Source: Trissonchulus latispiculum (lineage: Eukaryota; Nematoda; Enoplea; Enoplida; Ironidae). Taken from it: a stretch of 64,000 bases of DNA. Every line of letters starts with the position of its first letter. The first letter of the stretch is position 1. Made by a program: the position numbers and the translations under genes. The notes below the pieces were generated by a model. That model was not told the DNA's origin and searched no databases. It worked only from the letters and a program-made list of their open reading frames with translations. The stretch lies in the NCBI GenBank assembly GCA_030248195.1, contig JASAND010020984.1:1-64000 (forward strand), given 5' to 3'. Shown one piece after another: positions 22,046 to 53,660 of this stretch.

Positions 22046-24582
22046 TTTTTTGCTGTTATAAGATATTTTTCAAAGTTCTACCAATTTTTGCCAACTGAAA
22101 ACTTCAACAATTACTCAAAAACTGGCAATAGAAATATTCTACAGTCTCTCGAAACGCAAAAGGCTACATAAAGCAATAATCATATTCTAATAAACGGCTG
22201 CCAACACAGTCTTCTAAACTAAAAAATCCCTTGTTAAGCTTTTGCTGGTATCTCTGCCGTCAGCACTGCCCTAGCACAAACAAACCTTAAATGTACAATG
22301 GTTCAACAGTACTCGAAAAGATGCATGTAAGAAAAAGTATTTTTTCATACTGCATACGGTATTAAGTTAAAACATTTAGCATATATTCTGCTGAATCAAA
22401 ATGTGAATCAAAATCGCATTAAAATCAAAATTACTGGTTCATGGGCAAAAGTTTTGATTTTATTCAGTGTTCGATTTTTGGCTTCTGAAAATTCAGTTAG
22501 ATTTGATTCAGTTCGATTTTTTGCTGTGAAATATTAAATGATTTAATTCAGTTCGATTAATCAAAAATGAAAAGTCGCATCAAAACACTTTTGATTCGAT
22601 TCGAATCAAAAATCAAAACAACCGTACTTTTCAGGCCTAAAATAAGTGTTATCTCTTAACAAAAGGTTAGCTAGCACACTAACCGGAAAACCAAAGACCT
22701 CGAAACTTACCCACAGTTTGCCCCTATTAGAGCCTAATAGTTGGTAAAAAGCTGGGATAGATTAGGGGCTGCCAATTTTATTAGATCGAAAACGGCGCAC
22801 GGTCACCTCGCAACTTTTTGCCAAATTTCAAATTTTGACCTGTTATTGCTGAAGAAGCAAGCAACGCTCGAAAGCCGGAATGTTTTTAATATGCAGTACT
22901 AGTAACTGACAAAATCGTCAAACCGTTAATTCACCAGTGCTGAAAAAAGCTTTTTGAAAAACCCATTTTTCGAACTAAAATTTGTACTCTGGTGTCCTGC
23001 CAAAAACGGTGTATATGAGATATATTGTTGCCCACCCTAAACTTTTTCACTTTGATATGTTGGCTAACGAATGGCGAAAAAGTAGCTCTCTTCGAGGACG
23101 TCGTGCCAATTCCTTCGTAGTCCCCCCCTTAACCTTTCTCTGCAATGCAAGCAACGAGCATTGGCCGTTTTCAGCAATGCAATTCTCAGCAATGCACTTC
23201 TCGGCAATGCAATTCTCGTCATTAACTGTTACCCAAATCAGAGTGTGCGTGGAAGTACATTCTATTTTTTACTAGCTCTAGGTCTAGCTACACTTCATTT
23301 TGGATTTGTTGCGAAAATTGCTCAGATTGTATGAAGATGACTAAGGCAGGGTCTATTGGAACTAGTTTATGTGAACAAATTAGCTTCCGATTCTTTCTCA
23401 TTAGACAGCCAGTTTGCTTCAATGACCCCTGGTACTGCGCCAGTCAGCATCTGAACTGTCCCCTTGATAGCTGTTTCAAAGAGTCACTAGAGAGTCTAAC
23501 TCGCTTTCCCCCCACTAGGCTAGCCTGAACTCATGCCTGAAGGCCAGAGATCTTTGTTCTTTCGCCATCTGCTACTGTAGCGAGAAAGTAGGGCAGAATC
23601 CAAATTCGACAGTTCCAAAGAAGTAGTTCCAAATCAAGTAACGACCATGATGTTAATTACCTTAAATGTTGAAAAAGTAAAGTCGCTTATATTTGGCGTT
23701 GGCAAGAGTTGGCTATTATGGAGAGTCCAAATATTTTCGGAGAAACAAAATCTCACGACAATGGTGCGTTTTTCTCCCAATGTGCGTTTTGACCATATTA
23801 TAGGCTTGGTGCAGACACCCCGACCGACAAAAAGGTAACCTCCTCGGCAGAAAAAACAAAAAAACATGGACTCCTATCCAGTTTTAACCAAAAGTTGCGC
23901 ATTTTTTCTTTCAGACCTCACAAACAGGCTGTTCAAAATCGCGATTTTTACAATTTTGGCAAAACCTTGGGAAAAAATTAGCTATTTTCAATTAGACCTG
24001 TGAAATTTCCGATTGTTGGCAGCCGGTAGAACCTCTTCAATGCTGATGTAGATTAAACCCAGCCCCTGAATCGAACTCCGTGTTATTGTATGAGTTTCGA
24101 CATTTCAACTCCAAGCAGATATCACTCTCATTTGAGTTCTCGCTCCCCTTTGTGACCACAACCGCCCGCATTACCTTTGATTTACCCCAGTGGCCATCGT
24201 GTTAAAAGTTACAGCTTAAACGTATTCTGTCACTGAAATAAGCACAATTTCGATTCTTGTACAGCATTGGTTCACGCTCAATTGACAAAGACTACTTGAA
24301 TATACATCCTTCCGTATAACCAAGAGCACACAATCACATATAAGACTTTTATTTGAATGTTGTTAGTGCGCTAAAACGAAATTGTTATGGCATAAAATTT
24401 ATCTGACTTCAAAGATCAGAGTTAGCTTCTAGGTGATTGTACCCAAACATTTGAACGTAAGGAACAAATTTATAGATTAGAGTTCACAAGGTTGGAAAAG
24501 GCAAAGGATACAGCTTGTGTTTTAATTCAATTGATCCACACAGTTTTACGGTTTTACAGTTTTACAAGTTTATAATTAGTTC

Positions 24583-24939: not shown

Positions 24940-25080
24940 AACGAACTGAAACTGAAATTATTTTGTGATCCCGACTGAAACTTGTGACTTAACTGAAGCT
25001 TTGAAACTGAAACTTAACTTATCCCGTCAAAAACTAGTTTGGGAGGAGACCTGAAACTGAAACTGAAACTGAACTGATAA
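24940..25080. repeat. GAAACT-motif patch
   Basis: The hexamer GAAACT repeats, with the phrase GAGACCTGAAACTGAAACTG also seen in the large array at 59460-60000. The two patches probably belong to the same type of element. Confidence 0.7.
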
Positions 25081-25105
25081 TGAAACAAAACTACACAAGA
25101 CTTAC

Positions 25106-25746
25106 ACGGCTCCGCATATAACGGCAGTCCTTCACTTAGTAGATCTATCTTTCCTTCCATTCGTTCCAATTGGTCTCGAGTAATGCCTACTGCCGTCGTC
25201 TGTTTCAAAATCATCTGTGACGCGACGTAGGCGACCAAATGGTTAACATTGGAGGCCTGGCGGCTGCACAGAGTATCGTTAGCCAGAAACGACGTCAGAA
25301 TGTTACAGTTGTTGTCTTTGATATCATATTGCCAAAGTTTTCTTTCAAGTTGAGCCATCCTGGCCATGCACATGTAAAGAGGGATATACGGATATTCAGT
25401 TCCATTTGTGAATCTTCTGACTAGGATTTTGTTTACGCGTTTCAAATGAGCTATAGGCTCCCTGAGGGCGCGCACTGATCCCGAATTATCAGGGTATATA
25501 TGAAAAATTTCCACCCCGTCTCTTCTATATACCGCGGGTTTCAATACTGTACCGGAGTGAGTATACAGACTGGTACGCCATCCAGAAATTTCTCCCTCGA
25601 TCTCGATGGGAGTTCCACTTGGGATGTCGGTAAAGTCCAAACGGTCAATAGGCGTCCAGTCTTGGAGGTGTCGTGTATTGATAGGATCCGGTTCACATGA
25701 GGTGTCGTATCTGGATCGAATACGGTAAATGGTCTTACCGTTTGAC
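25106..25746 (-). CDS. Internal exon of an unidentified protein
   Basis: On the minus strand, an acceptor (TTTATTTGCAG) precedes base 25746 and a consensus donor (GTAAGT) follows base 25106. The 641-nt stretch between them is open in one frame. The ~213 residues look like true protein: balanced composition and several spaced Cys, with no low complexity. A typical phrase is PYIPLYMCMARMAQLERKLW. I do not recognise the family. It could belong to a host gene or to an envelope-like ORF of a retroelement. Flanking exons were not found. Beyond the donor the frame runs into the GAAACT repeat, which supports ending the exon here. Confidence 0.55.
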
Positions 25747-26596
25747 CTGCAAATAAAGCTATTCAGATGAGAAAACAGTGCTAGTGCTATATCATCACAA
25801 CAATTTTGTGCTGTAATAGTGAGCTTAGTAAGTTATAGCCAAAATCTGATAAAGATAAACGGCTCTGCAGTTTCCATTCTTGTTGCCAACAAACTAAGCG
25901 TGCTTAAAATAAGCAAACAATTTTGTCGGCAAAATATTCGTGTTCCTGAGTCTATAAATAGAGGTTTAGTTAAGTCCTACAAGACGTAAATATGAGAAAT
26001 ATAGAAACATAGTAAATATAGAAAGCGAGCTGATCATATTAAGCATTTAAATCTTGTTTTTTACACATTTAAATGTTGGCTCATATTAAGAATTTTAAAG
26101 CTTAACAAATACTTGGTCAAGGTCGGGTCAGAGCTCTTCATCCGTTGACCATTTCCGAAATGACCCGAACTGACCCGGTGACCGGGTGACCCAGTTTCAG
26201 CTCTGATTTACACCAAAACGTCAACATGTTTAGCAAATTCTAGCAATATTTTTGAAAGACTTCTTAAAAATCGTCAAATTCGTCATTTTTGACTGGCCAA
26301 AAATATAAAAGTTTGCTATTTTTGTTAATTTAAGAATACACCTCCTTGAAATTTTGAAATGTTTTAGGGGTAGATGGTCTACCCAGTCTACAGTAGACCC
26401 CCCGTTAGACTCCCCCAGACTCGGACCCCATGTTAATGTGTGCGAATAACCAGAAACTTTTGTCAACACTGGCACAAAACCTAAGAAATGAAGACAAATC
26501 CAAATCCAAAGCCAAATCAAAGTGCAGTGCCTATTGCTTAATTGATGGAGAAAATGATGACAGAATTTTGGCATTCTCATTGCTATAGATACAAAC
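25747..26596. other. No supported gene; GACCCGG patch near its middle
   Basis: AT-rich sequence. At about 26105-26205 lies the GACCCGGTGACCGGGTGACC-type patch related to 21979-22045. No LTR or primer-binding site for the following gypsy element was found. Confidence 0.35.
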
Positions 26597-26641: not shown

Positions 26642-27187
26642 GTGCACTCCCTGCGGTCAGGCTTAACTGGGCCTAGCGAACCAGCTGCCCCTGTCCCAAG
26701 CAATAGCCAGCGACCGGGCGGCTGTGACCCCGACCCGGAGCCCGACCGGAAACCAAGGGTTCGTGGAGCAATGGATGAGTGGGTGGTCCCGTTACGGGAT
26801 CAGCCCTCGGTCCCTGCTCAACCTCCAGTCCCGCGACGGGATACGGAAGGAATTTTCCTAGTACGGCGTATGACTAGCCAGGAATATGGCGTGATCAGAG
26901 GACTCCTTACAGCGTGCATAGCAGAGCTCCCTATGGAAACATGGGAAGCCTTAGAGCGCAATTTCCCTCGGGTCTGTATGGAGTTACTCCGTATGTGGCC
27001 AAGCCCTAGAGAGGATCCACACGCAGGTGCTTCCCCATTCGATAACAACGGAGCAATATGCGGAACAATTCTACAGCCGGATGCAAGAACCGCAGGAAAA
27101 GCCGCAAGATTATATGGCAGCGTTACGCTTGTCGAACTGGGTTCGACCGTGAAAAGAAAGTGGTTGCTCAGTTTAAACGTAAATTGA
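26642..27187 (+). pseudogene. gag: gypsy gag, N-terminal part
   Basis: The open frame begins with a Pro/Arg-rich leader, followed by a helical region (EYGVIRGLLTACIAELPMET) of capsid-like character. The good frame breaks near 27050 and coding continues in another frame (EKKVVAQFKRKLKSEM near 27150), so at least one frameshift lies between. An upstream ATG at 26599 may be the original start. Confidence 0.6.
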
Positions 27188-27286
27188 AGTCCGAAATGCG
27201 ATCTAGAATGGCTGCCCCTCTGGCGGATATCCAGTTCTGGCCACACGTAAGACCTCATAACCCGGGCTCTGCATATCGTAGAATCG

Positions 27287-27847
27287 GTGCAGGTTGAGTT
27301 GGACCGGGATCAGGCCGTTACGGTCTTTAGTGTGCAGAGTCAGGGTCCACAATGCTACAATGCTACGCAGGGGAGACCCCAGCAGAACCAGCAGCAACCA
27401 GCACAGCAGAACCAGGGTCGCAACCAAGGTTACCAGCGTAATGACGAGCGACCACCACCACGTCAAGCACCGGGTCGGTGTTGGTACTGTGGTTTAGTGG
27501 GACATAGACAGCAACAATGTCCAGACTACCTGCAGTATCTGAGCCAGAATGGTCAGACCCAGAACCAGGCAAGGGGTAGTGTTCACCCACAGTACCGTGC
27601 TCGCGACCAGGAGGGTAACCCTCCTGCCCGGAGTCGTTACGACCGGGACCAGCGCAGTCAGGGCCAGCGGAATCAAGACTTCCGTAACCAACAGGAACCC
27701 CAACGGCAGCAAGGCCAACAGGATCAACGGGCCCAGCAACAGCGGCAGCCGGTACGGCCGCGCTCTATAAGCAGGGGCTATGTGGGTCCACGCCGGTATG
27801 GAGGTTTTCCAGAACAGGGAAACGAGGAGGCGGGACGCGGGCGGTAG
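27287..27847 (+). CDS. gag: gypsy gag, C-terminal part with CCHC zinc knuckle
   Basis: This 186-codon frame is very rich in Gln, Arg and Asn. It contains CWYCGLVGHRQQQC, a perfect C-X2-C-X4-H-X4-C knuckle (about residues 65-80), the nucleocapsid signature that binds element RNA. The Arg- and Gln-rich flanks fit a nucleocapsid tail. It lies just downstream of the frameshifted capsid part. Confidence 0.8.
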   Translation: MQVELDRDQAVTVFSVQSQGPQCYNATQGRPQQNQQQPAQQNQGRNQGYQRNDERPPPRQAPGRCWYCGLVGHRQQQCPDYLQYLSQNGQTQNQARGSVHPQYRARDQEGNPPARSRYDRDQRSQGQRNQDFRNQQEPQRQQGQQDQRAQQQRQPVRPRSISRGYVGPRRYGGFPEQGNEEAGRGR

Positions 27848-27888
27848 ACCTGGACCCGTGTCCCGCACCGTCAAAGCCATCTGGCGGA

Positions 27889-29594
27889 ATGGTCTGTGCG
27901 GTACAAGCAGCTAGTACTAACATTATTAACATGACTGAAGCAGTCAAGAGGGACCCTTTCTGGAATCGTGGTGGCCTTTGGAGTAGCGACTCCGAAAGTG
28001 ACGACGAGGCCGAGCACCTGGAAGGAGCTGACCCTCTTCCAGAAAAAGATTACGGCCACCCAATTTTTGAACTTCACGCTCGGGCGACCCAAGCGATCAA
28101 CCAGTGGAAGTGCAAGTGTAAAACCTGCAAACCATTACGGAGACGGGCTGAATGGTTTCCTTTTGGGGAGGTGGTCCTGGCTAATGGTGGTTTCCCTGAT
28201 GGGGGTGATGTCATCTATGATGGCGAAGGTAACCTTCGGCCATCTAAATATAGGAATAGAAGGCGTAAGGAAGTGAAACCCTTTGGCGACGGAGGAGCCT
28301 CCGAACGCAATTATAATGTGCCTGATCGGAAGAAATGAAAACGAGCACCAGGAACAGAATGGAATATGCTCCCTGTTCTGCGTAAGGCCATGAAATGGCA
28401 GGAGAATAACGCCGTCATGGCAGCTCAAACCCGAGCTAGTCAACTCGGGACGGGCACGGCTAGGAGGCAACGTAAACCTTCGACATCTAAGGAGGTTCAG
28501 ACAGACCCTATTCGGATTATATTGCCGTTACGGCAATGGAAACTGTCGATAACTGAGGACCAGCCTGTGGTAGGGGCTAATGCGCAAACCCGGGGGAAAA
28601 ACACCATGAGGAGCAAGCTAAAAGCCCAGGGGATGACCAATCTAAGGGTAAGGGGCTTCCAGACAGACTGCCCTATTCGGATACCCCAGTAGCTGACATT
28701 TCTACCTCTACCCAGGGAGTCCCGGAGACTCCAGCTAGTAAACAACATCTACCTAGAATAGTGGTCACTGACGCGTCTCCACCGAAACGGGGTGGTACCT
28801 TACAGCCGTGGGCCACTGCAAATAACCCAACACGGAGAGAACTCACGGAAAGTGACGTCTCGGACGATGAAGCCGGGGGTTCAGGATTAACTCATGCCCC
28901 TGTAATGTCTATGGTACTACACCTTTGCGACTCCGGAAAGACACGGACGGTGAATGGGAGCAAGTAACCCGAAGGTCAAAAGCCTCCTCAGGTACTAAGC
29001 AGACTATAATTCCTACACAGAACAGATTTGCAGGAAGTGCAGGACTATGCGCCTATTAGACACGGCTGGGCGGTCGTGACTCAAGCGGTTGAGCAGGCCC
29101 ATGTGCTAACCCAGTCTATTAAGGAGCAGATCCAACAATTGTCCGTGAACGTGACGTCCGTGACGGACCAGGTGCGTCAGTCCACGCAAGAGTTTGAACA
29201 ACTCTTAGCTGAATTCGCACACAAGGAACCGGATCAACCCATCTGGTCCGAGGACCCCCCGCAGCCTAGGAAAGGCAGACGTGGAGTTCGACTGAATGAC
29301 CCAAACGAGATCATAGTACTGGATAGTACTCCACTGGAAGGGGAACCGGTGCCTATTCAGCAGGAAGTTACTTCTGCTACCTTGGACGGTGCTCCAGCGC
29401 AGCAAAAGAGCACCACTGTAACATCATTAGAAACGGCTTCTACGTCTGGAGTCCCATTGGAAAGTGGTACGGCCACTATAAATCAGCAAGAAGTGACTTC
29501 TACTGATATTGGGACTAAGTTTGGCACATGGGACCTGGAAGAACAGCTTCGTGCTGCTCTCAACCCAGTTCGAAGAGCAAGTCGAAACAAGTGA
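27889..29594 (+). pseudogene. gypsy region between gag and protease, frameshifted
   Basis: Coding-like frames follow one another with shifts: 27889-28338 (acidic, then a Lys/Cys phrase WKCKCKTCKPLRRRAEW), 28366-28692, 28761-28967 and 29028-29594. The last starts with a helical stretch (AVEQAHVLTQSIKEQIQQLS) suggestive of a coiled coil and then turns Thr/Ser/Pro-rich. No enzyme motif is seen. It is probably the long linker of a Gag-Pol polyprotein. Confidence 0.5.
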
Positions 29595-29725
29595 TAACGA
29601 GGAGGCTAGTGGGCAACTCACAGCTCCAAGTAAGCACCTGAACAAAGCGGTACTCTCTGTTCTGAATGGGACCTCTCCATTTTTCGTCTCTCAGTGCACC
29701 CATATAGCATTGAAGAGAAGTTATC

Positions 29726-30001
29726 GTGGAGGTCAAGGGCATCAAGACTCTAGCCCTGTTGGACACAGGTGCTAATATTTGCTTGATGTCCAAGCAATTC
29801 TTTGACCAACTTAACATCAATGGACGCTTACATCTGGACGAAACAAAGGCTACGGAGGTAGCTACGGCTGCCGATGACCGGAGCCTAGCTATATTGGGTA
29901 CAACCAATATTCCTTTTAAGTTGCATGGCGTTTGGTATGAATATACCTTTAATGTCACGAATAGCCTGCAACAAGATTTCATTATTGGTTGTGACTTCTA
30001 G
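29726..30001 (+). CDS. gypsy aspartic protease
   Basis: The active-site phrase ALLDTGANICLMS (D-T-G motif, about residues 10-22) and the C-terminal FIIGCDF, equivalent to the I-I/L-G-x-D-F motif of retropepsins, frame a ~90-residue domain of normal length. It would process the Gag-Pol polyprotein. It ends in a stop just after CDF, which breaks it from the linker that follows. Confidence 0.85.
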   Translation: MEVKGIKTLALLDTGANICLMSKQFFDQLNINGRLHLDETKATEVATAADDRSLAILGTTNIPFKLHGVWYEYTFNVTNSLQQDFIIGCDF

Positions 30002-30847: not shown

Positions 30848-30883
30848 GCCAAACTACGGGATATACTGGTCGAAATCTATGAT

Positions 30884-31774
30884 GTGGGCGCCCGATGGGG
30901 TAACCCGGGTCGGACTAAAGTCGACCAGCATGTCATTGATACTGGTGAAGAGGGTCCTGTGAAAGGACGATCCTACCGGTATAATCCCAAGGACAAAGCC
31001 GAAATTGAAAAGCATATCCGTGCAATGCTGGATGAGGGGGTATGTTCACCCTCCACCAGTCCCTGGTCCTCACCCTGTATCCTGGTCGGTAAAAAGGACG
31101 GTACTACACGATTAGTCATCGATTACCGACGGTTAAATAATATTACGAAAAAGGATAACTATCCCTTGCCCAAGATTGACGAGATCCTGGGTCAACTCCA
31201 GGGCGCGGTCATAAGCACCATTGACTTAGCAGCGGGATACTGGCAAATCCATATGAATGTCATGCCGTTCGGGTTGTGTAACGCACCCGCAACGTTACAA
31301 CGCTTGATGGAAAAGGTCCTGACAGACTTACCGGTATACATTGACGACGTCTTGATTCCATCTACTGATCCGGAATCCCATTTGGAAATGCTCAGGTCGA
31401 CTCTGCAGCGCTTAAGGGACAATGGTCTGCGTATCAAGCTTAAGAAGTGTTGCTTTGCTCGGGAATCGGTCCCTTTTCTGGGTAATTTTCCAGGCCGTAA
31501 CGGCATCAGCGTTGACCCAGACAAGGTGAGGGCAGTGTTCCAACTTAGCCCACCTAAAGACGTCAAAGGCATTCGATCTTTTCTCGGAATGTGCGGCTAC
31601 TATATGCGGTTCATGTCGAACTATGCCAAAGTAGCGTCCCCATTGACAGACCTGCTGAAGAAAGGAGTACCCTTTGTCTGGTCTGACGCCTGTCAGCAAG
31701 CCTTTGAGGAACTCAAGAGGCATTTGACGCAGGCTCCAGTGCTATCTTTTCCCGACTTTGACAAAACAATTTAA
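30884..31774 (+). CDS. pol: gypsy reverse transcriptase (damaged)
   Basis: Motifs in order: SPWSSPCILVGKKDGTTRLV, then DYRRLN, then STIDLAAGYWQIHM (motif A with its Asp), VMPFGLCNAPATLQRLM (motif B), YIDDV (catalytic motif C) and FLGMCGYYMRF, with the connection to RNase H. Compared with the family, about 25 residues are missing between motif A and motif B and about five before YIDD, both in frame. The frame stops at a TAA (31772-31774) right before the RNase H domain. It is not expected to be active. Confidence 0.9.
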   Translation: MGARWGNPGRTKVDQHVIDTGEEGPVKGRSYRYNPKDKAEIEKHIRAMLDEGVCSPSTSPWSSPCILVGKKDGTTRLVIDYRRLNNITKKDNYPLPKIDEILGQLQGAVISTIDLAAGYWQIHMNVMPFGLCNAPATLQRLMEKVLTDLPVYIDDVLIPSTDPESHLEMLRSTLQRLRDNGLRIKLKKCCFARESVPFLGNFPGRNGISVDPDKVRAVFQLSPPKDVKGIRSFLGMCGYYMRFMSNYAKVASPLTDLLKKGVPFVWSDACQQAFEELKRHLTQAPVLSFPDFDKTI

Positions 31775-32279
31775 GTGTCATCCGACGCCAGTAAGAAAGG
31801 CTTCGGTGCTATTTTGGAGCAACAGTTTTCTGTCCCTCGAAGCCTGGATAAGCCGAATGGACAGCGCGTGTTACGGGAACGGCCAGTTGCGTACGCTAGA
31901 AGAACCTTAACCCAAGGCAAAAAAGGCTACTCCGCAACGGAAATGGAAGCCTTTGCAGCACTATGGGGGTGCCAGAAATTCCGCCACATCTGTCCGTAAA
32001 ACAGTTCGTTTTACGTACGGACCATCAAGCAATAAGAGACTTACTGAATAATATCAAAGCGTTGAAACAAGGCAAACTGGCCAAGTTTGCAATACGCATG
32101 CTTGAATTCGACTTCGTTGTGGAATACAGACCAGGCCGAGAGAATGCAGGACCGGATTGTCTATCTAGATTGGACCCGATTGATGAGCCCGAGGACAGTG
32201 AACAAGAAAAAAGGGTTATGTACCCTAAGGGGCCGGTGTTGGAAATGCGAATTCGTGAGAAGGTTGGTGTCAAAAAGGG
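31775..32279 (+). pseudogene. pol: gypsy RNase H domain, frameshifted
   Basis: VSSDASKKGFGAILEQ gives the first catalytic Asp and YSATEMEAFAALWG the Glu. After a frameshift near 31980, LRTDHQAIRDLL gives the second Asp, and YRPGRENAGPDCLSRL is the usual RNase H end. No zinc-binding integrase N-terminus (H-H-C-C) follows; the sequence runs into the G tract instead. Confidence 0.85.
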
Positions 32280-32289
32280 AAAGGAGTGG

Positions 32290-32550
32290 GTTTTGGGGGG
32301 GGTTGGGGGGGGGGGGGGGGGGGGGGGGGGTGGGGGGGGGGGGGGGGATGTGGGGGGGGGGGGGTCGCTGGGGTGGGGTGGGTGTGGGGGTGGGGGGGGG
32401 GGGCGTGGGTGGGGTGGGGGGGGGGGGGGGGGGGGTGGGGGGGGGTGGGGGGGTGGGGGGTGGGGGGGGGGGGGGGGTGTGGGGGGCGGGGGGGGGCGGG
32501 GGGGGGTGCGGGGGGGGGGTGGGGGGGGGGGGGGGGGGGGGGGGGGGGTG
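32290..32550 (+). repeat. G tract of about 250 bp between RNase H and the NADAR ORF
   Basis: Nearly pure G with single T, C or A interruptions. All six frames give artificial Gly- or Pro-rich ORFs, and the ORF of the NADAR protein is open through it by accident. It replaces the position of integrase. It may be a true low-complexity tract, a badly sequenced region or an assembly join. Confidence 0.9.
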
Positions 32551-32579
32551 GGTTGTGTTTTTTGGGTTTTGGGGGGTCA

Positions 32580-35500
32580 CAGGTTGTCACAACACCCACG
32601 GCTGTACCATCGCCTGTACCAACTACTAGTGTAAGTTTAGAAAAACCGAGTACATCGTCTGCTAGTCCATCTGTTGAAACACCGAGTCTACCAGTTATTC
32701 CAGAAGAACAGTCTTCTACCACGACGGATTGGAATTTTAGGGAACTTCTGCGTATAGCTACTTCTTCGGAAATGGAATCAGAAGCTCAAAGAAACCCTTC
32801 TCCGTTCGATCAGAGTTTGAATGTTATACTGAAGACCTCTGAAGGGCAGATGCATTCAGTTCGGTTGATGCAACCCATGGAACAGCATCAGAATCCTAAG
32901 GTTTTGAAACCTTCGGATAGAGCTTCTCAGGTTGAACAGCCAATTTCTATTCTATCGGGAGACTATGTGCTCTCTGAAGGCAAGTACTATGCGTACTTAG
33001 TTCAACCAGCTCGTGCTCTAGCTCCTCGTGGTAGTGAGTATAGTTTCTTTTGTCGATACGTGAAGAATGAGAAGGAACATATTCCAAATTTGTCTGAAAT
33101 TGTTGCTTGTCTAGCGGATCAGAGTAAGCTCTTCCATCGTTGTCTTTATACGATTGGACCTGATAGCTCGGTTGCTATCTACCCCTATGCAGTGATCCTC
33201 TCTACGGAAAGGATTCCTCTAGGTTCGCTAGTTGAAACTATTCCTACGGCAGTTTACCAACCACATCAAGCTGAGTTGGATTATGTGTCGGATTTGGTCT
33301 ATCAGGATATCAGACCACCCAATTTGGGTAATCCGAATATTATTCCTCAACCCATTCGTCATCCTATCTATGCGGTCAGGGTTGATCCTGTTCCGTCTCC
33401 AGCGGTTCCAACTATTCCTCCATCTTTTGTTCCAATTCAGGTTCCTTCAGCAGAACATGTTAAGGCAGCAGATTCCTTTAGGAATGTCGTTCTCAATCCG
33501 GAACCACCAAGGGTTCAGGAACCAACGGTGTCTTCTGCTTATGCGTTTGTTCAGAATGATTCGGAAGGTAGTAAACTCATTCGCCGTATTCCTAATTATC
33601 AGACATGGTTGGAATGTCGTCCAGATACTACGGAGAATCAACAGTTTGAAGTTACAGCTCCTCTTAGTAAGGATGAATACATCACTTGGTTAGATCGTGG
33701 TTTCAGGCAGCAGAATTTTTCTTTTCGTGAAGTTCTTCTCATTTGTAGAGACATTCGTTTCCATCTAGATTTTGGTGTTTCCTTGGAAACTAATATTCCT
33801 GTCTATTCTCCATTTGACATCTATGATAACCTTAGTCATCGTGATATTCAGCGTGCGACAGCAGATATGCTTTCACCGTATGCAGCTTATCGTTTCGCAG
33901 GTAATACTCGGATCACCCCATTACCTGTTTCGTGCAAGGAGAACCCTAAGCTTATGCATCCTATTCTAGCGGCTTTTAGATCTTGTTTTGTGGACCATTT
34001 TCGAGCTAATTGTACCACCATGATTGAACTTCCGATGAATCTTTTGGAGTTGATTAAGTTGCAAGTTGAGGAACAACATCCGAATTGGCCGAAGACCACT
34101 CTTACTCCAGATGTTCGGTTCTTTACCAGCCCAGAGACGGGTCTTGAAGCTCAGGAGTGTACTATTTCGCTTACTTTTCCATCCATGATGGATGCTCAAG
34201 GAAATTTCCATCAGGCTTTTGTTATTTCAGCCAGTGGCCCTTCTCGTCATGAAGCGTTTAAGGCATTTTATCCTAAGATCTTTCCGGAAATTCATAATTG
34301 GCCACATTTGTTGATTCGTCGCTATAGGGAACAGTTGTATCATCTTATGCGTCTTGACAACACTTTGATTGCTGGATGGCGTGCTATTCGTGATGCAACC
34401 ACTTGGTTCATTGTTAAAGGTCGTATTCGAGGTTTCAATTCAGCTTATCTATCTGATTTTGAGCAGGAAGCGGAACTTCTGTTTATGAAGACCTTCTTTC
34501 GCTTTCCTTATGCAGCTAGCTTTATGAATAACGTTGATGGCGGTTTTCTTCTTTTGGATGAGAGTTATCGTTTTCCTTGTGCAGAGACTGCTTATCAGTA
34601 TTTCAAGTGCAAGCTTTTGAACTTGCCAGAACTAGCTGATTGGGTTCTTCGTCATGCTAAGCGACTTAACGGTGTTCAGATTAAGTACTACGTTGACAAT
34701 AAGTTGAAGGATTCTCCATATTTAAGGGAATTTTGGAAACAGACTTATCGACCTCTATTGGCTTACATCACTTGTTGGGAAAAGTTCTATCAGCAGCCAG
34801 AGTTACAACGTTTTCTCTTGGACAATTGTGAGAAGTATTTTGCTAAAGCGGCTAAAGGTCACCCTTTTATGGGAACCGGCTGTGATGCCACTAGTCGCAA
34901 GTCCATGTTTGCTTCGCAACAAACTGGTGAGAATATGATTGGCTGCATGTATATGCATATTCTGTTGTTTTTCATGGTCGATGGTATTATGGACTTGACT
35001 GATGCAACAGGCAACTTACTTACGGGAAATGCAATGCGGGAACGCAAAACCATTATTGGTCAGCGTATGCAGAATGCAGTTAAGGCATATCAGGATGGCA
35101 AACTTTGTCCACCTTATTGGGATCTCGTAGGTCAGTCGCCTTTGCCAAATTTTGTCTTACGTCCATCTGTAGCGGATAAGGATCAAGGTGATCCTACGGG
35201 TACTTATTGTCCGGTTCAACCGTACCAGACGATTTGTTACCTTGAAACAGCTATTCCATTTGATCCTGTTTTCGCGTGTCATCTTTTGGCGAAGAAGTCT
35301 TGTTATTTTCCAGCGGCTCTTTTGCTGCGTGCTCCACAATCAGGAGGATCTCGTCGTCGTCATGAGCAGAAACGGTTACTTTCTGATCTTTTACCTCTTC
35401 AACCTGCTCTACATCATCGTCATACCACCTTGTCAGAACCAGTAGCTGGTAACAAGCCTACACAGGTCAGGCCTCGTTTGGCGCCTGCACCAAATCTTCC

Positions 35501-35759
35501 AGCAAAGGATCCTTCTATTCGTAAACAGTTAACTCAGTGGGATGTTGAGCGGTACATGCCTAGTTTCTCACTTCCAGAGTTGAACAATCAGTGTCCTTTG
35601 CCAATGTTTCCAACAACTTCAGTACCACCTTGTGCAAGTCCTGGAGATGCAATTCCGTTTGAACACTTGCAATTGCGTAGTAAGCCTACTCGTCGAGATT
35701 ATTACCAGCAAAGAAGTCAGCGTCGATCATTGTTGCCTACGCCTAGTCATGAGGTGTAG
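32580..35759 (+). CDS. Large ORF with NADAR (YbiA-like N-glycosidase) domain
   Basis: The frame is open from 32286, but the first ~95 codons are G-tract translation, so the real protein begins at or before 32580; no start can be chosen. About 1060 residues follow. First is a Pro/Ser/Thr-rich N-terminus, then a long unrecognised region. The NADAR domain follows (about residues 747-893 counted from 32286): DESYRFPCAETAYQYFKC (E-x-x-Y-x-x-x-K motif), KFYQQPELQRFLLDN, HPFMGTGCD (equivalent to F-W-G-x-G) and TGENMIGCMYMHI (equivalent to G-x-N-x-L-G-x-L-M). The Arg/Pro-rich tail ends at TAG 35757-35759. NADAR enzymes cleave N-glycosidic bonds; known substrates include riboflavin-pathway intermediates and ADP-ribosylated guanine. 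Codon use is T-rich at third positions, unlike the gypsy pol upstream. The ORF is intact, and its mobile-element status is inferred from context and from the second copy. Confidence 0.78.
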   Translation, partial: QVVTTPTAVPSPVPTTSVSLEKPSTSSASPSVETPSLPVIPEEQSSTTTDWNFRELLRIATSSEMESEAQRNPSPFDQSLNVILKTSEGQMHSVRLMQPMEQHQNPKVLKPSDRASQVEQPISILSGDYVLSEGKYYAYLVQPARALAPRGSEYSFFCRYVKNEKEHIPNLSEIVACLADQSKLFHRCLYTIGPDSSVAIYPYAVILSTERIPLGSLVETIPTAVYQPHQAELDYVSDLVYQDIRPPNLGNPNIIPQPIRHPIYAVRVDPVPSPAVPTIPPSFVPIQVPSAEHVKAADSFRNVVLNPEPPRVQEPTVSSAYAFVQNDSEGSKLIRRIPNYQTWLECRPDTTENQQFEVTAPLSKDEYITWLDRGFRQQNFSFREVLLICRDIRFHLDFGVSLETNIPVYSPFDIYDNLSHRDIQRATADMLSPYAAYRFAGNTRITPLPVSCKENPKLMHPILAAFRSCFVDHFRANCTTMIELPMNLLELIKLQVEEQHPNWPKTTLTPDVRFFTSPETGLEAQECTISLTFPSMMDAQGNFHQAFVISASGPSRHEAFKAFYPKIFPEIHNWPHLLIRRYREQLYHLMRLDNTLIAGWRAIRDATTWFIVKGRIRGFNSAYLSDFEQEAELLFMKTFFRFPYAASFMNNVDGGFLLLDESYRFPCAETAYQYFKCKLLNLPELADWVLRHAKRLNGVQIKYYVDNKLKDSPYLREFWKQTYRPLLAYITCWEKFYQQPELQRFLLDNCEKYFAKAAKGHPFMGTGCDATSRKSMFASQQTGENMIGCMYMHILLFFMVDGIMDLTDATGNLLTGNAMRERKTIIGQRMQNAVKAYQDGKLCPPYWDLVGQSPLPNFVLRPSVADKDQGDPTGTYCPVQPYQTICYLETAIPFDPVFACHLLAKKSCYFPAALLLRAPQSGGSRRRHEQKRLLSDLLPLQPALHHRHTTLSEPVAGNKPTQVRPRLAPAPNLPAKDPSIRKQLTQWDVERYMPSFSLPELNNQCPLPMFPTTSVPPCASPGDAIPFEHLQLRSKPTRRDYYQQRSQRRSLLPTPSHEV

Positions 35760-38700
35760 TGGTTGTCGTATTTTGGTATTCCGCCCAATGGTCGACGTAT
35801 GATCCTAGAGGATCGTAGGTGCGATTGGACTTTTGGTGTATTGGGTATTGACCTGGAGGTCAGTAGGCGGTACTACCAGGGTTCAGGCCTTATTTTTCTT
35901 TTTTTTTGTTTTTCTCTTTTTGTCGTTTTGCAAATACTAAAAACATCTAAATTGACGTAGTTTGAAAGGCAGATTTGTGACGATTTATTTTTCTTAAAAG
36001 GATGATGTTTTGTTTGAGAATTTGTTTTTCGCGAATGTGGAATTAAAACTGGATTCAATTTGTTCTTAGATTTTTAAGGCAATTTAATTGGATTTGAAAG
36101 AGGCTAGAATGTGCAAGATTTTTCTAAAAAGAATAGATAAAGCCTCAGATTGAATAAAGCAGCGGATAATTTGGATAATGTGTGGTCATTTGAGCTGCTC
36201 CTATTTTGGTTTCATTGTTTTTAGTAATTGCCTACAGTCAATATGTATAATCCAGTGTACGTACGAGTATTTTTGAATCTCTTGTTTGTGTTTGTTTTGT
36301 TGTTTAGAATATTGGAATTTTGTAGCATTTTGTATAGTCACGTTTAGACATGTATTTTGATAGTTTGCTGATAGCTACGTTAAATGGAAATGCCTAAAAA
36401 TAGAAATATCATAAAAATCCAAAAATATTGTGTTTTGTTATTGGATATGATTACTTATGTTATTCTACTTAATTTTGGTTGTTATTTGTGGTTGTTAATC
36501 ATTAGCTAGTTACTACTGATAATTTTTGTTTGTTTTCAGCTCGTGCCATTGATAGTATACATATGTGTGTTGTAACTTTGTAATACATTTCACGGAGCAA
36601 GCTCGGCTTTAAGGGTTTTGTGCATAAGTGTTCTGTAGAAATTTAGTTTTTCAAGAGAGCAACTCTAGTCATGAGTGTACAGAATTTTCTATCTTTTCTC
36701 TTTCACTTCTCGATTCTTTCTCTTTCTTAGATTCTATCTTAGATTTCTTTAGAAACTCTATCGTAGTCTTTCACTATCTTTTGACTGTACAGTTTGGCAA
36801 CTCAGTAGAGTCTGCACTGTAATGTATATGTGTGTTTTCTATGACTACGGATACAACTACGGATATAACTACCGAGCGATGACGCGAAATAATGATCAGC
36901 TCCGATCCTGAAATATATTGAGTTAGCCGTTCGATCTCTAACGAGAACACGGTTGTGAACTCGTCCCAAAGAAGCTAAATTACATTCCCCCTCATTCCAA
37001 AATAACTTTAACTTGCCATGACTACAACAGCTACAACTCATCGATTAAAATTTGAACTTTCATATATGTGTCTTATTTGTTTGTTTGTTCTTTATATTTG
37101 TCTTTGATTTTGCTCAGTTTACTAACCCCGTAAAGTGTCTTCTAACCACCGGTAGCTAAGTTTTTGCCATAATTTTGTTGTCATTCTTTGTAGTCATCTT
37201 GTACTTTATGTTTATGCTTTATGAATATGTACAGTTTTGCATTTTTCTTTGCCATATCTATCCTTTTGATTCGTTCAGTATTTTGTTTATACGTGTATCC
37301 CCTTCCTCAGTATTTTTTTCCCTATGTTTAAGTGCTTTATTTTGTGCCTTTAATTTTTATCTTGTTTATGATCAGGCGATCATTTTTCTTTATCCGGCGG
37401 AGGATGTAGTAAATTTTTACTTGATTTAAAATATTTATATTATTGGATTTCTTTCTTATTTAAAATTTCTTTAGATTCTTATAGTTAAAAACTTATATGC
37501 AATATATAATTATACCTCATACCTTGTGCATTGATTTTTGATTTTTGTTACGTAGGATTTCGTGCATTGTTAGCGAATTAGGTTCAGTTTTCGACAGATA
37601 AGATATCTCACGATATCACTACTTGATATAGGAAAATTTAGCCTGGTTCTCTACATTTTATAGTACTTTATGTAGTCTGTATAGCTTAGTTAGGTTATTT
37701 TCACTTGTGTACAGATACTTTGAAACTTGTGTACAGATAAATGTTGTACTTGTACTGTTTGTTTTTGAAAATTTGCTATAAGTGTGAATGTAACGTATAT
37801 TTGTGCGTGTAATTGTGACAGATCAATGAATGTTGTATGATTGTTGTATTTCTCTTTTCATTGTGGCTTTATATAACAGTGGTATTTGGTTACTATTTTC
37901 ATTGTGGGTTCGTTCCGACTCTTTTCAGTCTCTTTTGAGCTTTACCTTTGAAGTTTTCTAGTTTCTAATTTTGACCGTGTTGTATTACTTATGATGTTCT
38001 TTTTGCTAATGGGTGTTTTGGTTTAATTCCCCATGTTTGCTTACATTGAAAGACTTCCAACTGCTACCACTTTATAATTAATTTTTAATTAACTTCACTT
38101 GTTACGTTTTTGTTACCATGGACTTAAACGTGCCAGGATACTGACATAACTGGTCACATGGTATATACTTACTGTGAAAGTTTCAAATTCTTTTAACTTG
38201 AATTATTGGTAGCAACCTCTTCTCCTTACTGCTTTTTAGCAGGCGCTAAAATTCTTTTCACCGGGGGAAGATGTGAAATATCACTAAAATTAACATGCAA
38301 CCGGTCAACCTAAAATGTACTCGTGTGTAGATCCATCGGTTTTTATAGCTAACCTGATCTGCAAGATTTGTCTGATTCAGTGTAGTGTGGTGTTACTGTC
38401 TGTACCGGTTGGGCTCCTGTATTACTTTACCAATAAATTCATTTGTCCGCCACGTGGTTATTTAGTTGGTTACTGCCGAAGCCTCTGGAGTTCATCAGTA
38501 TGGTAATGTTTAGTTATTAGTTAGGTAAGGCACAGCAACTGTGTGCGGAACTAGGCCACGGCTCATACTACCTGCAATCGCCCCGCCAGTAGAATTCAGG
38601 TCTAGTCCAGGCAGTAGGCCTGAATTTAACAAGTCCTCCTTTTAATGTTAATTATTTATATTTTACTTAAAGACTCCAGAAACTTACTCCTAACCTTAAG

Positions 38701-39159
38701 CGAAACACTGGGATTTACTTACTTAATCTTAAATTATACTAAATTAACCTATTTTAATAACCTCTTTGGTTCTTAAATTTTGCGGAAGATCCGAAGGGAA
38801 GTCAGGTAGTCGAGCGAGCTTAGGACCACCCGCCCACCCAGCCGAAATATGCGCTCTGTGAGCTGTGCGAGAGGTTATCTCCTTACCTTAGCCTGAAGAT
38901 GCTCTCTTGAAGCTGACATTGCGGTTCTTTTCTTCTTTTATAATCTGTTTTCTTTTTATAAGGGTACTCTTACCTCGTCGTGACGGCTGGAGGACTTGAT
39001 TTTTCCCAATTGCGCACCGTCCCAGTGGCAAAATAATGGCAGTTTCCAAGCGCATTTTTCTGTCCGGTCGTCACTAGTCCGCTGACGCCAAGTCAGCCTT
39101 AACCTTGTTCTTATATTTAGTCATGTTTAGCTAGTTTGTTGTTTCTTATACAGTTTCAT
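35760..39159 (+). other. T-rich non-coding stretch after the NADAR ORF
   Basis: No ORF is convincing. Two purine-rich phrases resemble polypurine tracts ahead of an LTR: CCGGCGGAGGATGTAGT near 37397 and CCGGGGGAAGATGTGAAAT near 38261, each followed by TG. A GC-richer patch lies at 38520-38620. It may be 3' untranslated or LTR sequence of the element carrying the NADAR ORF. No matching 5' copy was found. Confidence 0.4.
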
Positions 39160-39830
39160 GATTTGTTATGTATTATAACTTGTCTTTTTCGTACGTACGT
39201 TATGAGACCCATTTACCAGAAATTCGCCAAAAATATTCTGAGTTTAAATTTTCGACTACTTTATGGTTATGTGTCCCTCGCAGGAGCTCGGGCGGTAAGC
39301 CCTGGAGAGATCTAATGAGGCGATGTGACGTCGGTCCTCTAAAAATATTAATGTGTGTGTTGATTGAAATTATTTTGGATTGAAATGATGGTAGAAATGT
39401 TAATTTAAGAATGTGTAAAATTTATGTTGAAATTGTGCTGTGAAATTTATTTGAAAATATTTTGTTTGAAATTTTTAGTGTGTTTGTGTGTAAATTACGT
39501 ATCTGTGTATCAGCCAGCCTAGTCACTAGGAGGCGCTGCGTACTTGTCTATTTTCGCAGAGAGTCTCTCCCAGCATCTCGCTTTCTAAGGGCGTCTCAAA
39601 ATTAACCAATCAAATTCTTCCAGCGCTTCTCAAAACTAGTTTAGTCTCCCTATGCCTGTCTGCTTTCAGTCTTGTGTTTTTCTTCTGTCTGAGACGGTCG
39701 TGTTTTGTTCTGCGCTATTTACGTCAGCCCCATATTATCTGTGCTTAATTCTTCTGGGTTATTAGTCTAAAGTGGGGACCACTTTAGACCTTTCTTGCTC
39801 CAGGTGACCCTGTAGAGCTATACTATTATT
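39160..39830 (+). repeat. LTR-like segment, related to 53090-53660
   Basis: TCGCAGGAGCTCG at 39277 is followed by AGCCCTGGAGAGAT. The same order with a few changes occurs at 53190-53230. About 230 bp further on, GGAGGCGCTGCGTACTTGTC matches GGAGGCGCTGTGTGCGCTTGTC at 53400. Sequence between is diverged. A small palindrome, CTAAAGTGGGGACCACTTTAG, ends the region near 39790. The pattern fits two related, not identical, LTRs or untranslated regions. Confidence 0.5.
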
Positions 39831-48039: not shown

Positions 48040-49430
48040 AAGGTTACTCAGGAACTTGCGGGCATAATTCAGGTGCCAGCTTACCTACAGGTGTTGCATC
48101 GCCAAGCGGTTACCCGCATTGTGCCTTAATTCGGCTTACGCCGGAAGGAATTCAACAACCGCGTCATCACATCTATGTGGTCGGTCCTCCATCTGACCCT
48201 GGTGATCCGGACTTTGATCCTGATCAATTTTCCAGCTGGATAGATCGGTTTCCCCGTATAATTCGGAAGTCTACCGGGAAATCATCGTTGGCCGTGACCC
48301 TAAACCTTGGTTAGCTATCACCCTCATTTGGCGGAGCCTTCGAAATGGACTGGCTGAGTATTCGCCTTTGCCTTATGTCAACACCTTGAACACTTTGGCT
48401 CCCGGGGATACCCATTTCAGTCGGGTAACGGGTGAACTCACTTTGGATGATGGCCATGTTGACGTCATCAATCAGGCAATCCTTGATATGGAAACCCAAG
48501 GACAGTCTATGTCGGTGATGCGCATGTATGGTGGTCCACCCCGACTTGGTCGAGGCCCGGAACCACAAGGCACCGCAATGGCTGGTATGTCTCAAGGCCA
48601 TCTACGGCGTTGGCTCCTAGCACTTTCGCGGCACCTGGAGCGCCTGCTATGCCGGGACCCGTCTTTCCGACACCAACGCAGGCTCAATTGGCAGGCCCAC
48701 CACAACGATCTGACATTGTTCTAACATCTGCAGTGAGCGGACCAATTCTGGCTACAGAACCCAGTTCGGTAACACCCGGAATGTTGCCCATTCGGCAGAT
48801 GCGTCCAACTCTTTTGGGACAATTGCGTCAACAAGGTCGTCAGACTACTTGGACTTTGGATGAACCACAACCTGAATTCCCTTCCGCTCGACCTCAAGGT
48901 CAGACGCCTATCGATCCAACCGGTTCTACTCGAACGACTGCTTCTGTATCAGAGGTACAGGGAACATCTGACCGTCATCTTTGACGTTCTCGCGGTCGGA
49001 GTAAACACAAGAAGTCGAAATCACCAGCTCGGTCGGTGGTTTCCACTGGCACTCGTCGTGGGAGACAGACCCCCATGAACAGCGATCAAATGCCTGGCCA
49101 CTCTAACAAGGAGGTGCGAAATCGCAGTCAGGGTCATTCACCCACACCTACACAGCTCACAGTGGAAGCTCGATCTATGCCTTGGGAGAGTGGTAGTCAA
49201 CCTGCCTCTCCTGTGCGGTAAGAACCTGAATCTTCGGCAATGCGGGATTCTATGGCCGAGAATTTGGAACGGTTGCAATCACAGGTTCAACAACTGCGTG
49301 AGGACTATGAACAACGATTTCCAGCACTTCACCGGCACGCTCCTCCATCTATTGAGGTGCCTCCACCTGCGACACCGTATCAGTATCAACAGCAACTAGT
49401 CGGAGCGTCAGCTAAACTCCGGTGAAACCC
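48040..49430 (+). pseudogene. Degenerate NADAR-type ORF, N-terminal portion
   Basis: Coding-like fragments in shifting frames: about 48270-48600 (EIIVGRDPKPWLAITLIWRS, LTLDDGHVDVINQAILDME), 48610-48984 (Pro/Thr/Gln-rich) and 49240-49425 with a short coiled coil (LERLQSQVQQLREDYEQRF). The Pro-rich character parallels the start of the intact ORF at 32580, but clear alignment begins only further downstream. Base composition is more GC-rich than in the intact copy. Confidence 0.5.
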
Positions 49431-51640
49431 CCTTACCGGGAACCGCGTGCTTCTGCACCAAGGAAGGTGGAAAACTGTCTACGGAATTCCCTAATCGTTT
49501 CACGGAAGAGACATTTCCGCCCTTCCGGGTTCTCATGACGGAGTACTATTTTCATTACCAGAACATTGGCATTAGTCACATAGTCCAACGTGGCCTGATC
49601 AGCCGCGTTTCGAGGCATTTAACATCGAACAGCCTACGCAGCAAGAAATCAACCAAATTCGAATCGCTCGGTGGCCGGCCCTACCTCACATCTACATGCG
49701 GGATATCGAAGGGAATTGGACCGTAGTCCATATCCATGGCCATTCCCAGTCTGTTGAGGTTCACCCGACCATTGAATTGCTTCGGTCAGTGGTTTTGAAT
49801 TGGATGCATGACAATGCACACCGCGAGGTCCCCTTACCGGACAATGTCCTCCGCTTCTTTTCTAATCTGAAACGCAACCGGAATCCAGCTGTCACTGCTT
49901 TAATCCAATTTCATCACCGTACAGGTTCGGACACGCATGGACATGCTGTTCATGAGTCCTGCTGGACGATCGAGAACTACCGCGACCCTCAAGGTATGTT
50001 CCATCCGGGATTTTCCCATGAAACCGTACCCGTCTAACGCAGCGATGGGCTGAAATTAACGCTCTTGCGGCAATGGTGCCTGAGCTGAAGAACTATCCCC
50101 ATCTAACTGAACAACCTGAGAAACGAGCTCTCTTCATGATTCCTGGTGAAGCCAGACGACATCGCATCAGAATCATTGCCATCGTAGATGTCATGAAGAA
50201 GCATTGCCGACCCCAAGTGGCCGAAATCAGAAATCTGGCTCCCGAGGAGTATGTTAAAAACCTACTTTACTAACTGTTAATCTGCCCTAAATTACTCTAT
50301 TTGTGTTTCGTGAATGATCAACGTAATCGTTACAAACAGCAGCCATCTAGCTTATATAAGGTAGCTTACATGCTTATGTAATCAGTCTGTGTAGTTTGCA
50401 TCTCTGGAGTTGCGGCCTGTAGAGCCAATTACTGTTCCATTATCGCCTATATTTTATGCCTTATTAAATTAATCGTAAGTTCTAGTAAATACCATGGTTG
50501 TTCTTTATCTTTATTAGGGTATCTTTAGATAGGGCTTTTAATTCTTTTCGCTTGGGTTGCACCCTAGGTAGCCTAGGACTAGAACCTGCATTCGTTCCGC
50601 CATCTAGTTGCCGACTTAGTTACCGGACAGTAAACCGGTAGTTAACAGGAGTACATATATCTGTATTACCGGCATCACTTCGTTTTCTCATTTATGTATC
50701 CGATCAGAGGCGGAATCGGTTTGGATATTCCCCAACTGCGCAATAAGCGAATGGAGACGAAGGAGCATCTTTACCATGCCCGAAAGGCTCAATTCTGTCG
50801 TCATCCAACCATGGAAAACGCCAATGAACCGTTCTTCTGGCTATGACGTCAAGGACGAGGCCGATCGCCATTATGCGAGAATGTCCTGAAGAACGCGTTC
50901 AGGTATGGTATATGGGTTTTGACCAACTGACCTAGCGATCCATCATTTTCCATACCTTCTATCATTCAGCCGAGATGCAACGGGAACAGTCGATTTATTG
51001 AGATGCCTTTATAGCAAGGCCTCCAGTGAACCGTTTTGGGGAAATGGATTTTTTATGCCTGATTTGCCCGACGAACGAAAGGTTCGAAGTCGACGCGACT
51101 TGGATCCAAATGATCCCATCGGTTGGGTCTATGACACTCGTCGATGGTCTGGAAACAATATCTAGGCGGTATGCATACGGAGCTGTTTCTCTGGTTTACC
51201 TAAGCTGGTCCAGATGACCTCAGGAAGAATCGGTTTACCCGAGAACCTGTGTCTTCACGTGAGCTTCAAGACTTCAAGGCTCTCGTTCTCAAACGTATCG
51301 AACAAGAGGCTGCTAATTACAAGGCAGATCGTCGTCCGGCGCCGCCGTTCTATCGCCATGATCCGCCTCGTCGGCTCATCAACGAATCCGACGTGGACAT
51401 GGGTGTGAATCGCCGTGGATTGCACATGGCGGGCTGTGAACCAGCAAATGATCGGGATAACGTCTATTTTCCAGCAGCCTTCATCATTATCTGGAATCCT
51501 TTGGAAGGCATGCCTGTGAACCAGCCTGATCATCGTGACCTGCTCTACCGCGAGTTCTGTCAAAGGTTTTACACCCACAATGAAGCGGCCTTACCTTGGG
51601 GTTTACACCACAATGAAGCGGTCTTGCCTTAGGGTTTATC
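49431..51640 (+). pseudogene. Degenerate relative of the NADAR ORF, C-terminal portion
   Basis: Fragments align in order with the intact ORF. 49696-50037 and 50073-50273 include NYRDPQGMFHPGF and PELKNYPHLTEQPEKR, which parallel MDAQGNFHQAF and PEIHNWPHLLIRRYRE. After a gap, a frame near 50695 reads RGGIGLDIPQLRNKRMETKE, then HLYHARKAQF (NADAR E-H-x-Y-x-A-x-K type). Near 51005, EPFWGNGFF gives the F-W-G-x-G motif. 51249-51632 contains QEAANYKADRRPAPPFYR, parallel to QNAVKAYQDGKLCPPYWD. Stops and frameshifts are frequent. The last ~60 bp hold a 29-bp tandem duplication. Confidence 0.65.
50274..50690. other. Insertion or unrelated segment splitting the degenerate NADAR copy
   Basis: The alignment with the intact ORF is interrupted here. 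Sequence before it ends YVKNLLY and sequence after resumes YPIRGGIGLDIP, while the intact ORF is continuous (MKTFFRFPYAASFMNN...). The ~417 bp between are AT-rich with stops in all frames and lack GT-AG ends at the junctions, so an insertion is more likely than an intron. Confidence 0.45.
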
Positions 51641-53089: not shown

Positions 53090-53660
53090 GTATTAGTATG
53101 TGTTATTCCCCATATATACTTGTATTTTGTATTTTTCTACTGATTTTTTATTGCTACGTAGGAAAGTGCAGTGTCCCATTTACATGGTGTCCTCGCAGGA
53201 GCTCGTCATGTGAGCCCTGGGGAGATGTAGAGATAGTATGTAAATCATTCATTTATGTATTGTCATCTAATGTTGTTGCACGCTCAATACATTTTCGGCC
53301 TTAGCTAGCGTTTGGCTTAGCTAACGTCATCATTCTATTTGGTTGGTCGGGGAGGTGTTGTTCTTTGGGGTGTAACTATTGGGTAAGTGATCAAACTTGG
53401 AGGCGCTGTGTGCGCTTGTCAACTTCTGGTTGGAGGGTGGGTTTTCTAAGCTCCGCCCACTTTGGGGTCTCCTTTGAAAACTCCCCAACACATCAGTTGT
53501 GTTAGTTTCTTTCCCAACTCTAGTCGGTTTATAATCGCTCGTCGGTCGCCCGATTAACATCTAGTTTCGTTTGGGTTAACGCTCCGGTGTCTCCTCTACA
53601 CCTACGCTCTCCCCCTGGGGTGTACACTGTACTGGGTTCATTCAACCCCAAGGTTTGTTT
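53090..53660 (+). repeat. LTR-like segment, related to 39160-39830
   Basis: It shares TCGCAGGAGCTCG followed by GAGCCCTGGGGAGAT (53192-53232) and GGAGGCGCTGTGTGCGCTTG (53400) in the same order and spacing as the segment after the intact NADAR ORF. GGTTTATAATCGC near 53525 could be a TATA-type promoter element. Divergence shows that it belongs to a different copy or lineage. Confidence 0.5.

Follow-up and report, generated by a model that had tools for sequence, protein, structure and literature searches.

The question raised by a 64,000-nucleotide stretch of the genome of the nematode Trissonchulus latispiculum (contig JASAND010020984.1, positions 1 to 64,000; hereafter, the window) is whether an open reading frame (ORF) with a NADAR domain, lying at 32580..35759 on the forward strand just after a gypsy pol region, belongs to a mobile element, and what its protein might do. 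A sequence-only reading had taken the ORF to be intact and the adjacent pol to be its partner, and had proposed that the element carries a nucleic-acid de-ADP-ribosylating enzyme against a host defence. We consider it highly probable that the window ORF is instead the 5'-truncated third ORF (ORF3), in the env position after pol, of a multi-copy Ty3/gypsy long terminal repeat (LTR) retrotransposon family; this confidence concerns the identity of the element and excludes the substrate of its product.

The existence of the ORF (1059 codons) and the presence in it of a NADAR domain, as first proposed, are both confirmed. The domain, at 34557..34961 on the forward strand, is delimited by its Pfam match, its fold and its conserved residues: PF08719 scores 37.4 bits against a curated cut-off of 35.1, with one match per ORF in the window ORF and in the copies scanned, and the relatives at C17619 and C18538 score 37.0 bits (above the cut-off) and 30.6 bits (below it), respectively. 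The structures nearest to a predicted model of the domain are YbiA and the Phytophthora nicotianae NADAR (2b3w and 8bau). Upstream of the domain, alignment defines a conserved middle stretch of ORF3 at residues 459-587 of the window ORF (33954..34340, forward strand). No result was obtained from protein-database searches with the window ORF or its NADAR part, from scans of viral contigs with the window ORF, the window reverse transcriptase (RT) and a 44-base block considered below, from a single-sequence PDB search, from Foldseek without VIA-align, or from Rfam and transfer RNA scans; tblastn of the NADAR part against phages returned a single match, with an E value of 0.7.

The size and distribution of the family were established by searching the window's own genome (733,804,655 bases in 21,732 contigs; C-numbers denote its contigs and L-numbers its loci). 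The search gave at least 54 matching rows, several of which are pieces of one copy, and the copy count is a lower bound, 43 of 950 candidates having been scored. Open ORF3 frames of 1,585-1,827 residues occur at no fewer than 14 places, complete copies having frames of 1,731-1,826 residues; none of the ten places read contains an internal stop (C15338 being read in part), no introns were seen, and near-identical copies are spread over several contigs. Thus, the outcome that had been named beforehand as fatal to a mobile-element origin, a single-copy gene with introns and no link to repeats, did not occur. The closest copy, C17619, has an open frame of 1731 residues, the shared portion of which is 99-100% identical to the window ORF, and this copy, together with C16394 and C82 (96-99% identity at the DNA level), matches the window from position 32578 onward only. 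We therefore conclude that the window copy has lost ~39% of its frame from the 5' side: 32580..35759 comprises the C-terminal 1059 codons (~61%) of ORF3, as judged by comparison with the C17619 frame and the near-identical copies, and the ORF is intact in the sense that it is open throughout, but not in the sense of a whole gene.

The element context was read from ten places, picked for their long frames and fetched with ~10 kb of flanking DNA per side. In eight of these ten places, chosen as they were, gypsy pol lies immediately upstream of ORF3 on the same strand. At seven of them (C3563, C473, C16019, C7545, C9764, C8329 and C16814), open pol frames end just before, or overlap, the NADAR frame (both taken stop to stop), the 5' portion of pol being frameshifted at C16019 and pol being split into two pieces at C9764; directly upstream at C18538 is the truncated 3' end of pol, whose 201 residues are 99% identical to C3563. 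In all three of the pol ORFs scanned, the order is that of gypsy: protease, RT, RNase H, then the integrase zinc finger and core. The single gag scanned contains a zinc knuckle. An LTR pair, together with a primer site and a polypurine tract, was found at two of the six places tested. At C7545, the two repeats are 99.5% identical over 370 bases, which marks a young insertion; the 5' copy is followed by TGGCGACCGTGA, which we take to be a gypsy-type primer site, and the 3' copy is preceded by GCAGGGGGAAGA. At C8329, the pair is 90.8% identical over 411 bases, and at both places a purine tract lies ahead of the 3' LTR. Outside both LTRs of C7545, there is in addition a 128-base stretch (L056 809-936 and L057 4721-4848), far exceeding a normal target duplication.

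Several observations weigh against this assignment. The ten places were selected for long frames. Over the 7.9 kb ahead of ORF3 at C17619, the closest copy, no pol was seen on the sense strand, and at C15338 the sequence before the frame is a run of N. A gag frame of at least 220 residues is present in three of the ten places, and C7545 has no gag ORF between its 5' LTR and pol. Within the fetched DNA, no LTR pair was found at C3563 (3.7 kb upstream of gag), C16019, C18538 or C17619. Finally, some of the near-identical contigs may in part be alleles.

A rival reading is a host gene family that sits near transposons by chance, for which nematodes offer a precedent: SNA-3, as described in PMC9303266, is a nematode protein of 937 residues with three NADAR domains. 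Against such a relationship, each ORF here has one NADAR match and no introns, near-identical copies lie on several contigs, and pol and LTRs accompany the family; SNA-3 itself enters this comparison by description only. We regard a host gene as extremely unlikely, and retain the third ORF of a Ty3/gypsy family as the identity of the window ORF. Overall, the proposal that a mobile element carries the NADAR protein stands, on the strength of the upstream pol, the LTR pairs and the multiplicity of copies that the genome search revealed, but the neighbouring pol in the window is unlikely to be its partner.

Indeed, the pol region upstream of the window ORF appears to derive from a different gypsy family. 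It comprises, on the forward strand, a decayed gag region with an aspartic protease (26642..30001; protease at 29714-29998, 5e-7; zinc knuckle below cut-off) and a decayed RT and RNase H (30848..32169), with a stop and a frame change near RNase H; no integrase was found in the window pol. The supposition that this pol and the NADAR ORF form one element draws on their shared strand and on an order, pol then NADAR, that is the same as in intact copies. The sequence comparisons nevertheless point the other way. The near-identical copies align only from 32578, and the ~290-base G-rich, low-complexity junction tract that precedes this point (32290..32577, no strand assigned) lies outside their alignment. 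Among the matches listed, which are part of 255 rows in all, the window RT has more than 100 copies that match its C-terminal half at 82-91% identity, and in many of these the pol frame is close to 2,000 residues; in the one such copy checked, C11505, there is no NADAR match above inclusion in ~3.6 kb after pol, the best being 3 bits on the opposite strand. Moreover, the 3' region of the C11505 family reappears downstream of the window ORF (38632..39464, forward strand, with a polypurine-like stretch at ~39297), where the two are 84.5% identical over 849 bases. The window RT-RNase H is ~49% identical to the pols linked to ORF3, whereas whole ORF3-linked pols are 59-60% identical to one another (C3563 against three others), and third-position G+C content is 0.47-0.57 in the window pol and 0.34 in the NADAR ORF. 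Lastly, the pol has stops and frame changes, whereas the ORF is open. It is therefore very unlikely indeed that the pol and the ORF form a single element in the window; their adjacency is probably fortuitous, the pol at 29.7-32.2 kb coming from a NADAR-less gypsy family.

Truncated at 32578, the window ORF3 copy has neither its own pol nor a detectable LTR pair around it in the window, and it is a fragment. A polypurine tract and putative LTR start of the ORF3 element lie at 38263..38293 (forward strand), at the end of a stretch that aligns at 71-72% with C3563 and C18538 in their 3' regions. The simplest picture seems to be that an older, NADAR-less gypsy element (26.6-32.2 and 38.6-39.5 kb) is broken by a 3' fragment from an ORF3-bearing element. 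The G-rich junction tract may be either an assembly artefact or a real scar; a similar tract lies at ~4119-4247, and both are possible assembly artefacts. We had also considered whether a 44-base block (39271-39314 and 53187-53229) closes the NADAR element on its 3' side; this was rejected on comparison with C11505, which assigns the block to the NADAR-less family.

A second ORF3, decayed and of a distant lineage, was recognized at 48040..51640 (forward strand) through collinear, shuffle-tested alignments that cross stops and frame changes. Residues 459-587 of the window ORF align to 49759-50135 of the decayed copy (none of 400 shuffles being as good), and residues 665-847 align to 50728-51353 (0 of 1000 shuffles; the best of 231 tiles). 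The signal is weaker for residues 754-847 (7 of 400 shuffles) and absent for residues 800-960 alone (310 of 400 shuffles). Pieces of the decayed copy have no Pfam match, no single-frame match to the NADAR profile was found in it, and its EH motif gives a weak profile match (16 of 500 permuted profiles). Within the decayed copy lies a solo LTR of 396 bases from the ORF3-bearing gypsy family (50252..50647, forward strand), 80.4% identical to the C8329 LTR and flanked by the 6-base duplication GGAGTA; what had been taken by eye for an intron with splice-like ends (~50254-50706) is this LTR with its target duplication. Two further candidates were discarded: a T-rich similarity that lies downstream of the two copies, scoring 260 where the null averaged 172 (0 of 100 shuffles), is largely compositional, and an alignment of the decayed copy that was too permissive (score 187; shuffled mean 132, maximum 180) was superseded by the stricter ones.

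Elsewhere in the window, there is a 2-kb inverted repeat whose arms (18898-20933 and 22338-24381, 95% identical) enclose a centre of 1.4 kb, and there are further large palindromes at 60898-62377 and 1-1498. An open frame of 272 residues with no Pfam match (25014-25832, reverse strand) lies upstream of the gypsy relic, and the stretches 47240-47650 and 3080-3370 are rich in GGCCGGCC.

What the NADAR domain of ORF3 might do is constrained by its active site, which we describe using the residue numbers of the P. nicotianae enzyme (PMC11543638); the columns were mapped via YbiA, the Phytophthora protein itself being outside the alignments. None of the 11 ORF3 rows departs from the catalytic Glu and Lys (columns E43 and K50) or from HPFMGTG, and a conserved Trp is retained in the window lineage. 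On the debit side of our reading of the ORF, the columns of E125, D130 and W133 are occupied in this lineage by Lys, His and Met, respectively, and the GR motif is lost. The sequence-only reading had cautioned that activity is not assured because the usual His of the EH motif is Thr; with Glu and Lys kept throughout, the Thr is the lesser worry, and the doubt about activity now attaches to the three changed columns. Given that the active site is altered in the window lineage, de-ADP-ribosylation by it is unproven.

The domain is, nonetheless, conserved. Five differing pairs of NADAR sequences, separated by between zero and four amino-acid changes, give ratios of non-synonymous to synonymous substitution rates (dN/dS) of 0.023, 0.092, 0.00, 0.018 and 0.016, the last three sharing members; two distant pairs are saturated. 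The value for pol in one pair, 0.074, is comparable. These ratios show strong purifying selection on the NADAR domain of ORF3, and a domain so constrained does something.

One form that this function might take is that of a pseudoenzyme, in which the window-lineage NADAR would be a binding module for ADP-ribose, NAD or nucleic acid, and not a hydrolase. The Lys in the last-strand acid column, the His and Met in the D130 and W133 columns and the missing GR motif are all consistent with this. According to PMC11543638, which includes mutagenesis of the P. nicotianae residues E125, D130 and W133, replacing the last-strand acid of the Escherichia coli C7 NADAR abolished efficient hydrolysis. The invariance of Glu and Lys and the strong constraint on the domain argue against it, and the invariant His could replace the acid; phage NADARs are reported to employ His. 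Set beside the family, T4 gp30.3 scores below zero with its profile, and the T4 His adjoins the Lys, in another column; the phage comparison is therefore unreliable. We regard a pseudoenzyme as a real possibility, somewhat short of an even one. By contrast, it is very unlikely that small metabolites, for example intermediates of the riboflavin pathway, are what the ORF3 NADAR cleaves, in the manner of YbiA: TIGR02464 (riboflavin N-glycosidase, YbiA) does match it at 7.5e-8, but the score of 32.8 bits is far below the curated 73.7, the pocket is altered and the domain is fused to an exonuclease-like domain within a retroelement.

The latter domain occupies the N-terminal half of complete ORF3 copies. 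D44, E46, D122, Y218 and D222 (alignment A4) are invariant in nine of nine ORF3 N-termini, all of which thereby contain DxE, D and YxxxD, the motif pattern of a DEDDy exonuclease. In the window-type lineage, and this must again be counted against our interpretation, the domain is unsupported by Pfam, by a PDB profile and by comparison with RNase D. Support comes from a second type of ORF, of ~700 residues, that combines an exonuclease-like domain with a canonical NADAR (L074 in C8717, 1147-3213; L073 in C16016, 949-3063). The L073 ORF matches DNA_pol_A_exo1 at 1.5e-4 (22.1 bits, just below the 23.6 cut-off), hhalign relates the window-type lineage to L073 and L074 with an E value of 8e-5 and a probability of 61%, and when the two ORF types are compared by profile, both domains align in the same order (exonuclease, E 1.7e-3, 16%; NADAR, E 8.5e-7, 92%). 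On these alignments, the N-terminal half of ORF3 looks like a DEDDy exonuclease, if only weakly.

NADAR genes are numerous in this genome beyond ORF3. A genome-wide Pfam search, in which 150 of 2478 candidates were scored, placed all 150 above the NADAR cut-off at 124-150 bits, such that there are at least 150 matches in the genome; relative to these, the family of the window, at about 37 bits, forms a divergent NADAR branch (support 1.0). Of the two ORFs of the second type that were examined, L074 has a NADAR that is canonical and scores 142 bits, and comes directly after a fragment of gypsy integrase (rve 8e-6, below cut-off), and L073 adjoins a protein-kinase ORF. Four other loci (L069-L072, in C8936, C11883, C12367 and C803, respectively) contain a canonical NADAR ORF of 180 residues and are 96-98% identical over 3.4 kb. 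In L070, the only one of the four scanned, NADAR is accompanied by a Pox_A32-type ATPase (2.5e-9) and a TATA-binding protein, as well as by a DNA_pol_B_2 match of 1.4e-3, below its cut-off; from this gene content, L069-L072 are candidates for a Polinton-like or virus-like element, an assignment not fully established as regards capsid, integrase and terminal inverted repeats. The YbiA subfamily has a Glu in the last strand (E125); L070, L073 and L074 retain it, whereas the window lineage has Lys there. As the canonical NADAR is found in this second type of ORF, with one copy placed behind a piece of gypsy integrase, the idea of protection against host ADP-ribosylation fits that lineage better.

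A working of the ORF3 protein can be put forward tentatively, with the balance still on the side of doubt. The protein would act on the element's own RNA or complementary DNA, the exonuclease part trimming 3' ends and the NADAR part recognizing or cleaving an N-glycosidic bond, for example between guanine and ADP-ribose; this would be real hydrolysis in the canonical lineage, whereas in the window lineage the altered pocket would make binding, or another base substrate, as likely. Reversible ADP-ribosylation of nucleic acids is an established bacterial antiphage weapon; in the literature consulted, no similar arms race of eukaryotes with their transposons is established. It is conceivable, though we think it doubtful, that the NADAR genes on unrelated elements (two gypsy ORF types and Polinton-like elements) reflect recurrent capture of a nucleic-acid de-ADP-ribosylase, with the host marking foreign guanines, the elements carrying the eraser and the window lineage having since shifted its active-site chemistry. 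The presence of NADAR on retrotransposons and Polinton-like elements, with purifying selection shown in the retrotransposon lineage tested, opens the question of such an arms race to direct test; for nucleic-acid repair or counter-defence, the exonuclease-NADAR protein encoded in the env position offers a concrete candidate.

Our literature search, from which subscription journals were mostly absent, found, among the papers listed, a single report of NADAR in transposons (PMC12477816). That report describes NADAR in an Ectocarpus Gypsy Pol and NADAR-like domains in the ORF1 proteins of Tx1 long interspersed nuclear elements of the Pacific oyster, for both of which it suggests a role in RNA processing. 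Compared by description only, the Ectocarpus case is likewise a gypsy element with NADAR, but here the domain ends a separate third ORF and is joined to an exonuclease-like domain; the oyster protein is likewise that of a retroelement, but Tx1 is a non-LTR element with its NADAR in ORF1. Nidoviruses and other RNA viruses also carry NADARs, as stated in PMC9503650; these too, from their description, are on eukaryotic virus-like replicons, but in RNA viruses and in different genes. With YbiA and the P. nicotianae NADAR (2b3w and 8bau; PMC11543638), ORF3 shares the fold and the catalytic Glu and Lys, whereas the equivalents of E125, D130 and W133 are replaced in the window lineage. With the DEDDy 3'-5' exonucleases (PF01612), it shares the motifs in all nine rows, and the L073 relative matches at 1.5e-4, but the window-type lineage itself has no significant profile match. 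What is new here is the separate third ORF with NADAR and an exonuclease-like partner, together with canonical NADARs both in ORFs of a second type and in Polinton-like elements; it seems that this genome is unlike the known cases in the scale of its NADAR complement and in having two classes of carrier.

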